Assembly (NCBI GenBank): GCA_030651965.1
Contig: JAUSBQ010000202.1
Location: forward strand, 1-36,452
Source: Pseudolabrys sp.
GTDB taxonomy: Bacteria; Pseudomonadota; Alphaproteobacteria; Rhizobiales; Xanthobacteraceae
Direction of reading: 5' to 3'
Length of the DNA: 36,452 nt
Part shown: positions 11,168-35,949 of the stretch, in pieces
Position numbering within the stretch: the stretch's first letter is position 1
Layout: each line of letters starts with the position of its first letter
The notes under the pieces: model-generated
Seen by the model: only the letters and a program-made list of their open reading frames with translations
What the model was told of the DNA's origin: nothing
Database searches by the model: none
Program-made: the position numbers and the translations under genes

Positions 11168-11240
<73 letters not shown>

Positions 11241-11243
<3 letters not shown>

Positions 11244-11324
11244 ACCTTCGCCCCTTCGGGGCTTCGGTTGGCAAGCCCCCAAAGGGCGAAGGTTGCCCGC
11301 CGAAGCTTTAGCGAAGGCGGGCGC
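11241..11324 (+). repeat. tRNA-trailing structured repeat, copy A
   Basis: CCAACCTTCGCCCCTTCGGGGCTTCGGTTGG...GGTTGCCCGCCGAAGCTTTAGCGAAGGCGGGC; aligns with the 3' flank of the tRNA-Thr fragment at 30812-30895. Confidence 0.85.
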
Positions 11325-30792: not shown

Positions 30793-30811
30793 GGAGACGC
30801 GTCTGGCGGCC

Positions 30812-30895
30812 CGTCTTCGCCAAGGCTTCGACGGGCAACCAACGCGGATCAAAGGGTGGCTTGCCAACCGAAGCGGCACTGGCCGCGTAGGTTGG
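30812..30895 (-). repeat. tRNA-trailing structured repeat, copy B
   Basis: Reverse complement CCAACCTACGCGGCCAGTGCCGCTTCGGTTGGCAAGCCACCC...GGTTGCCCGTCGAAGCCTTGGCGAAGACGGGC aligns with copy A at 11241. Confidence 0.85.
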
Positions 30896-30938
30896 TGCCG
30901 ACGGAGGGATTTGAACCCCCGACCCCCCGCTTACGAAA
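30893..30938 (-). other. 3' fragment of tRNA-Thr(CGT): putative att site at island edge
   Basis: Reverse complement TTTCGTAAGCGGGGGGTCGGGGGTTCAAATCCCTCCGTCGGCACCA: anticodon loop through CCA, no 5' half upstream. Confidence 0.8.
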
Positions 30939-35316: not shown

Positions 35317-35494
35317 GATTTCCCCCTCGTTTCTGACTTACCTGCTGCGTCGTTGGCGGCACACTGAAAGCCAGGCGGACCCGCCTCGACCCGCACCGGG
35401 GGCATTTCAGCCGGCTCTCCAATCGAGCAAGTGGGAAGTCCCGTCCACGCGTCCACACTACGTCTCCAAGTCGAGCACCCCGCCATACACGCAC
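35309..35494 (-). CDS. Small zinc-ribbon protein, possibly N-terminally truncated
   Basis: RDFPLARLESRLKCPRCGSRRVRLAF CxxC motif. Confidence 0.5.
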   Translation of the reverse strand: MRVWRGARLGDVVWTRGRDFPLARLESRLKCPRCGSRRVRLAFSVPPTTQQVSQKRGGNHG

Positions 35495-35556
35495 TCCCGC
35501 ACGCGTTTCATGCCGTCGCGCGGTCCCCAGGCGCAGCGGACGGTAAACCCCTCCAT

Positions 35557-35949
35557 AGCTGGCACGTCGACGGCACCACCCTTGCGACCCTTCTGCCGAT
35601 CATCCGCATGAACATCAGCCGCGAAAGCCACCTGATGACGGATGGAGCTAGCTGGTACAAGAACGTTGGCAAAGAATTCGCCAGCCACGGCAAGGTGAAC
35701 CACAAGGAAATGGAATATGCCCGTGGCGAGAGCACCACGAATACCGTTGAAGGCTACTTTTCGATTTTCAAGCGCGGCATGAAGGGCATCTATCAGCACT
35801 GCTCTGAGAAGCACCTGCACCGCTACCTGAGCGAATTTGATTTTCGCTACTCGCACCGCATCGCCCTTGGCGTCGATGATGCCGCCCGCGCCGACAAGGC
35901 GTTGCAAGGCATTACCGGAAAGCGCTTGATGTATCGGCAACCTCACTGA
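35557..35949 (+). pseudogene. IS1595-family (ISXO2-like) transposase C-terminal fragment
   Basis: HVDGTTLATLLPIIRMNISRESHLMTDGASWY...TNTVEGYFSIFKRGMKGIYQHCSEKHLHRYLSEFDFRYSHR; N-terminal half missing. Confidence 0.88.

Follow-up and report, generated by a model that had tools for sequence, protein, structure and literature searches.

A candidate GIY-YIG mobile element family at tRNA and tmRNA 3′ ends probably includes two palindromic elements of a Pseudolabrys contig

Introduction

When a strongly structured sequence follows a tRNA gene so closely that its first stem begins with the tRNA's own CCA, is it a conserved part of the transcript or a unit that arrived from elsewhere? The window (the whole 36,452-nt stretch of Pseudolabrys sp. 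DNA analysed here) raises this question twice, at an intact tRNA-Ala(CGC) gene and behind a fragment of a tRNA-Thr(CGT) gene. The original prediction took the two copies for a conserved tRNA-trailer RNA that could hide the CCA end, guide 3′ maturation, terminate transcription or act as a two-state switch, with the caution that part of it may be selfish. Here we compare the two copies with their relatives in sister genomes and across bacterial phyla, and weigh this proposal against mobility.

Results

Architecture of the two elements

Both predicted hairpin elements are present and each starts at an encoded tRNA CCA, as judged from the sequence and, for tRNA-Ala, from ARAGORN (Table 1). The Ala copy begins where it had been placed, at 11241, but ends at 11322 rather than 11324; the second copy indeed lies on the minus strand behind the 3′ fragment of tRNA-Thr(CGT), at 30895-30809.

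Table 1. Positions of the tRNA genes and element parts in the window
Feature	Position	Strand	Basis or remark
Intact tRNA-Ala(CGC)	11168..11243	+	Target gene of the element; ARAGORN, Rfam RF00005 61 bits
CCA	11241..11243	+	Common to tRNA-Ala(CGC) and its element
82-bp palindromic element on tRNA-Ala(CGC), probably non-autonomous	11241..11322	+	Sequence; sister-genome family members at tRNA CCA ends
Hairpin A/A′, CCAACC-TTC-GCCCC-TTC-GGGGC-TTC-GGTTGG	11241..11271	+	Sequence; cross-genome covariation of stem pairs
A″, GGGCGAAGGTTG	11284..11295	+	Alternative partner of A; perfect inverted repeat of 11242-11253
Hairpin B, GCCCGCC-GAAGCTTTAGCGAA-GGCGGGC	11295..11322	+	Right boundary of the Ala element; dispersed relatives in the genome
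45-nt 3′ fragment of tRNA-Thr(CGT)	30893..30937	-	Same sequence as the 3′ part of intact tRNA-Thr elsewhere in the genome (L002)
Second element, 87 bp	30809..30895	-	Behind the tRNA-Thr(CGT) fragment; formerly beside an intact tRNA-Thr(CGT)

Also present are the AAGCC linker and the alternative pairing that had been described. The linker between A/A′ and A″ of the Ala element starts CAAGCC, and CAACCTTCGCCC (11242-11253) and GGGCGAAGGTTG form perfect inverted repeats; in the Thr copy the repeat of A and A″ carries one mismatch. Hairpin B is a hairpin of the A type in inverted orientation, with CCC replacing CCA, so that the unit of the element is an inverted pair, and it is a dispersed CCC-type palindrome that in itself has no tRNA specificity. 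Both elements are more stable than dinucleotide shuffles of their sequences (z = -5.1 for the Ala copy and -2.0 for the Thr copy), and an Rfam search of the window returned only tRNA matches, with no curated RNA family over the element.

Elsewhere in the same genome, elements are found on tRNA-Cys and tRNA-Ala(GGC) and also, as a sequence variant, on tRNA-Ser(GCT), and most other tRNAs carry none. The tRNA-Cys element (L009/L024) has a long extra palindrome, GTAGATCTCGGGTATACCCGAGATCTA, inserted within hairpin A. The variant on tRNA-Ser(GCT) (L051) reads CCATCCTGCTTCGCG..CGCGAAGCAGGATG, and its left end also precedes GIY-YIG genes in other families. Two more kinds of dispersed repeat in this genome, CCCTCCCC..GGGGAGGG and TCCTTCGAGAC..CCTCAGGATGAGG (L034, L036, L039, L040, L042), have hairpin B (GCCCGCCGAAGC..GCGAAGGCGGGC) nested within them.

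Placement on tRNA and tmRNA 3′ ends

If the element is tied to tRNA ends, then a pattern free of tRNA sequence should still lead to them. The pattern CCAACCTNCGCN{2,32}GCTNCGGTTGGCAAGC, derived from hairpin A and containing none of the tRNA, has 15 matches in 61 genomes, all within the window's genus, and its reversed control has 0. Every one of the 15 starts exactly at an encoded CCA, 13 of them on intact tRNAs (Ala-GGC, Ala-CGC, Cys, Thr-CGT and Tyr) and two on tRNA fragments (the Thr fragment of the window and one Gly fragment). The check proposed with the original prediction, placement relative to tRNA 3′ ends, therefore came out as non-random.

A looser pattern, with free bases at two stem pairs, was scanned against 84,980 genomes, and the matches listed include Patescibacteria, Acidobacteriota, Verrucomicrobiota, Planctomycetota, Omnitrophota, Bacteroidota, Rickettsiales and others. 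Among these matches, 15 of the 36 CCA-type hairpins lie at tRNA ends called by ARAGORN and 9 more at T-arm-like ends, as against 0/87 CCC-, CCG- and CCT-type hairpins at tRNA 3′ ends. According to Rfam, the T-arm-like cases include three tmRNA genes, each of which ends exactly at the CCA of the element (L114, L141, L174). On five contigs, most of them patescibacterial, a hairpin of the CCC type adjoins the 5′ end of a tRNA-Gly or tRNA-Pro gene in antisense orientation and has 4-6 nt in common with the tRNA (L119, L128, L157, L197, L210).

Among the 123 multi-phylum matches listed, the bases of the two free stem pairs are complementary in 115 and 102; shuffles average 64 and 54 and reach at most 82 and 67. 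An internal-loop position pairs no more often than in shuffles (49 versus 46 in the same 123). Since the stem pairs are formed far above shuffles, the covariation is real, and the second check proposed with the original prediction thus showed strong covariation; such complementarity indicates that the hairpin is under a pairing constraint, whether as DNA or as RNA.

An associated GIY-YIG nuclease

Behind the element at two loci, L057 and L061, lies an ORF, MKYVYILESIDFP..YIGLTDDL.., that Pfam assigns to PF01541 (GIY-YIG). The protein has about 80 residues, consists of the GIY-YIG domain alone and is of the Slx1/UPF0213 type; NCBIfam has no model for it. It is modelled as one compact domain (AlphaFold pLDDT 96.5) with the conserved tyrosines, Arg27 and Glu63, and its nearest solved structures are Slx1, the plant relative At-HIGLE and UPF0213. 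Among the matches listed, a GIY-YIG ORF lies near 8/36 CCA-type hairpins and 0/87 hairpins of the other types.

The association also holds when the search starts from the protein. Seven nuclease proteins, used as queries with no DNA pattern, were searched against 289 alphaproteobacterial, 399 Pseudomonadota and 297 Acidobacteriota genomes, and a locus was counted as associated when a tRNA or tmRNA 3′ end lay on the same strand at most 450 nt upstream of the nuclease. This was the case at 18/24 alphaproteobacterial, 22/24 Pseudomonadota and 10/20 acidobacterial loci, where chance would give about 0.2% (assuming some 45 tRNAs per 4.5 Mb) and where some tRNA calls were missed or lost at contig ends. 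The loci inspected have the CCA-anchored hairpin, and at further acidobacterial loci outside the automatic rule a tRNA- or tmRNA-like end is followed by the CCA hairpin (L355, L356, L358, L362, L363). The hosts of nuclease-bearing elements include Ala, Arg, Asp, Gln, Glu, His, Leu, Lys, Met, Pro, Ser, Thr, Tyr and Val tRNAs as well as tmRNA. As a control, none of 30 GIY-YIG genes of other subfamilies has a tRNA within 1.5 kb.

No recognisable tRNA accompanies the nuclease at L262, L267, L268, L269, L330, L364 and L370-372. At the first four of these the left end of the GIY-YIG element is preceded by '..CTCCGCCA' or a similar sequence, in which ARAGORN and Rfam find neither tRNA nor tmRNA. The genome of the window itself yielded no nuclease of the element clade in a protein search at E<=1e-20, so that the window copies may be relics, and a search of plasmid and phage collections found no relative of the nuclease at E<=1e-5.

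Empty and filled sites

If the element is mobile, orthologous tRNA genes should be found with and without it. Within the genus, tRNA-Ala(CGC) and tRNA-Ala(GGC) sites are empty, or carry a palindrome of about 57 bp, an element of 80-150 bp, or a nuclease-encoding version of 350-470 bp (L299, L302, L303, L304, L306 at orthologous tRNA-Ala loci). The mini form of about 57 bp consists of A, A″ and B only (L308, L309, L314, L318, L327); A′ is thus dispensable for persistence. In the pair of L310, which is empty, and L309, which carries the mini form, both flanks are ~97% identical and an insertion of about 55 bp sits directly after the CCA. At L303, the CCA is kept on one side of the nuclease-bearing element and the native GC-hairpin/T-run terminator on the other. 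At tRNA-Ala(GGC) of the one genus the nucleases fall into two separate clades, one of which groups with copies that other families have on their Val and Leu tRNAs, so that this site has probably been occupied more than once. The ends are palindromic, with no clean target-site duplication in L309/L310 or L224/L232, and the right boundary of nuclease-bearing copies is placed provisionally from few comparisons. Element tracts beside unrelated tRNAs are homologous to one another, and on these sequence comparisons both mobility and association with tRNA ends are well supported.

The A/A″ inverted repeat, allowing at most 2/12 mismatches, is found at 14/19 nuclease-bearing alphaproteobacterial loci compared with 0.7% of shuffles, and at 7/29 and 11/30 orthologous tRNA-Ala(CGC) and tRNA-Ala(GGC) loci compared with 0.7-0.9%; all these counts are lower bounds, as a test with 12-nt arms overlooks some short elements (L309, L327). 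The choice between A/A′ and A/A″ may act at the DNA level, as a hairpin or cruciform, or, by analogy with T4 segB, may serve as an RNA structure to hold back translation of the nuclease.

The Thr copy connects the window to a nuclease-bearing element: over 87 bp it matches the left end of the G014 element (L057) at 85% identity. It looks like a short derivative of such an element, and so has the relation of a short, non-coding copy to an autonomous one that is a feature of MITEs. In sister genomes (L059, L063, L069) an intact tRNA-Thr(CGT) is followed by the element, and the window is collinear with one of them (L059, genome G036) for 1.55 kb, a stretch that takes in both the element and the tRNA piece and ends exactly at 30937. 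The intact tRNA-Thr gene of the window's own genome is on a different contig and has no element. Intact genes with the element in the sisters, together with the break of collinearity at the start of the fragment, indicate that a later rearrangement, after the arrival of the element, split it and the 3′ part of tRNA-Thr from the rest of the gene. A family scan of seven flanking window ORFs around the fragment found no integrase family. Beyond the break, the window encodes an ISXO2-like DDE transposase domain (PF12762) at 35431-35949.

Discussion

The two window copies are very probably non-autonomous (MITE-like) members of a family of GIY-YIG mobile elements that is specific for tRNA and tmRNA 3′ ends and preserves the CCA, a reading that we base on comparative sequence evidence. 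The full element begins with CCA itself, leaving the tRNA intact, and continues with hairpin A/A′, an A″ able to displace A′, and the terminal hairpin B. In autonomous copies this palindromic module is followed, within about 10-400 nt, by the gene for the ~80-residue GIY-YIG nuclease. In the model that we favour, the nuclease, being similar to enzymes that act selectively on branched DNA structures, may recognise the palindromes, the end of the tRNA gene or both and would cut immediately 3′ of the CCA, after which host repair could copy or insert the element there. Short copies such as those of the window would have been moved in trans or would be relics. Since the CCA is kept and the native terminator still follows, an insertion probably does almost no harm, and this would account for the use of such sites. 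We infer that the nuclease drives insertion; against this, an 80-residue single-domain protein has no obvious means of recognising all tRNA genes.

In a different model, host processes such as gene conversion between tRNA genes spread the palindromes, with the GIY-YIG gene as a passenger or as a domesticated repair or RNA enzyme. Nuclease-free palindromes are indeed common, and the window's own genome has the palindromes and not the nuclease clade (E<=1e-20). However, the nuclease is associated with tRNA and tmRNA 3′-end sites across Pseudomonadota, Acidobacteriota, Verrucomicrobiota and others, the tracts next to unrelated tRNAs are homologous, and some nuclease copies are degenerate (L101, L114, L271), as would be expected of a selfish gene, so that we consider spread by the host unlikely. 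A conserved tRNA-trailer RNA, in which A/A′ or A/A″ pairing hides or exposes the CCA and so controls 3′ maturation or turnover of the tRNA, would fit the stem covariation and the mutually exclusive pairings retained in many copies; lying between tRNA and terminator, the element is also probably transcribed. Yet a DNA palindrome would covary equally, A′ has gone from the five mini copies, and the inverted repeat is missing at 22/29 and 19/30 orthologous tRNA-Ala sites of the same genus (the 19 including L309 and L327, which do carry the mini element). What remains of the original prediction is a structured, covarying element linked to tRNA 3′ ends far above chance. That it is a conserved tRNA trailer we regard as very unlikely, as a single tRNA locus may be empty, short, long or nuclease-bearing across sister species and as hosts range over many unrelated tRNA isotypes and tmRNA. 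The caution given with it, of a partly selfish nature, proved right and extends to the whole element.

The two other explanations that we considered are both exceedingly improbable. A GC-rich hairpin immediately 3′ of a tRNA, with a TTTTTT run about 16 nt beyond the Ala copy, might be read as an ordinary intrinsic transcription terminator, but neither hairpin has a U-tract directly after it and the presence of the element is patchy. A separate GC hairpin with T-run moreover persists 3′ of filled tRNA-Ala(GGC) sites, and such native terminators downstream make the terminator role that had been suggested unlikely. As tRNA and tmRNA 3′ ends are classical targets of genomic islands, the tRNA-Thr 3′ fragment of the window could in turn be taken for attachment-site debris of a tRNA-using, integrase-driven island. 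Against this stand the seven scanned flanking ORFs, which contain no integrase family, the sister species with intact tRNA plus element, with which collinearity stops at the start of the fragment, and the 57-470-bp elements that sit on intact tRNAs.

If both window copies belong to a mobile family, an apparent regulatory trailer of a tRNA becomes evidence for a widespread and apparently unnamed selfish element, whose insertion site is probably harmless and common to all bacteria. The family may account for some of the small GIY-YIG genes next to tRNA genes, and it cautions against taking covariation in tRNA trailers for regulation.

Relation to known systems

Searches of the open-access literature found no description of a GIY-YIG element family on tRNA ends, and the family is apparently undescribed. 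In the part of the survey of prokaryotic Slx1-like stand-alone GIY-YIG proteins available to us (PMC1564403), proteins of the same fold and with the same minimal domain are treated and no link to tRNA genes is mentioned. Elements that use tRNA or tmRNA 3′ ends and restore the gene are known among those with tyrosine integrases; unlike these, the present element has no integrase, measures 57-470 bp and is not bound to one isotype. An integrase-driven origin was also rejected directly, as the seven ORFs near the Thr copy include no integrase and the elements are too short to encode one. With MITEs the window copies share being short, non-coding, palindromic and related to a longer coding element, but the parent encodes a GIY-YIG nuclease, and no clean target duplication accompanies the palindromic ends in the pairs compared.

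The T4 seg genes are free-standing GIY-YIG homing endonucleases, of which SegB lies in the tRNA-Arg/tRNA-Ile intergenic region and has an RNA hairpin upstream of its ORF that restrains translation (PMC2988022). As in T4, an intronless GIY-YIG gene behaves as a mobile element beside tRNA genes, with the catalytic domain in an intron-free mobile gene and a hairpin structure ahead of the ORF. In contrast to T4, the elements described here are found in bacterial chromosomes, with no nuclease match in the phage collection (E<=1e-5), and sit right at the 3′ ends of tRNAs of many kinds and of tmRNA. They also have a palindromic module and non-autonomous copies, and their nuclease is a single domain of about 80 residues without the adjoining DNA-binding extension of the homing enzymes.

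The REP/RAYT systems (REPtrons) have in common with the tRNA-end element short palindromes in inverted pairs, non-autonomous copies and a cognate nuclease gene; they differ in using an HUH tyrosine transposase where the element has GIY-YIG, and the target of the element is fixed at the tRNA or tmRNA 3′ end. REP/RAYT was rejected as a home for the element, as the IS200/IS605-type (HUH) tyrosine transposase is absent, the recurrent gene being an 80-residue PF01541 GIY-YIG protein, and as the aligned copies have no GTAG tag, their left end being CCA and their right end ..GGCGGGC or GGCGGAC. The CGTC-tagged REPs are alphaproteobacterial palindromes reported to have no dedicated transposase (PMC3733652). 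They are palindromes of the same host group, and the tagged REPs of Di Nocera were rejected as a home for the element in their turn, as no CGTC stands at the ends of the aligned copies.

Within the genus and order, other small GIY-YIG genes (L071-L100) have shared repeats on both sides at 16/30 loci, compared with 35/5000 random positions (0.7%). These repeats are mostly inverted, palindromic and often CGTC-tagged, and CGTC-tagged hairpins flank 12/30 of the genes compared with 244/3000 random positions. We lean, with some reservation, towards a new multi-phylum class of elements in which a minimal Slx1-like GIY-YIG nuclease would mobilise palindromes into tRNA and tmRNA 3′ ends with the CCA kept, and in which small GIY-YIG nucleases would be the missing mobilisers of other REP-like palindromes, the CGTC-tagged ones included. 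If this is true, GIY-YIG proteins would supply the mobiliser reported missing for the CGTC REPs (PMC3733652). Among known systems, the free-standing GIY-YIG homing endonucleases are the nearest in kind and REP/RAYT the nearest in architecture.
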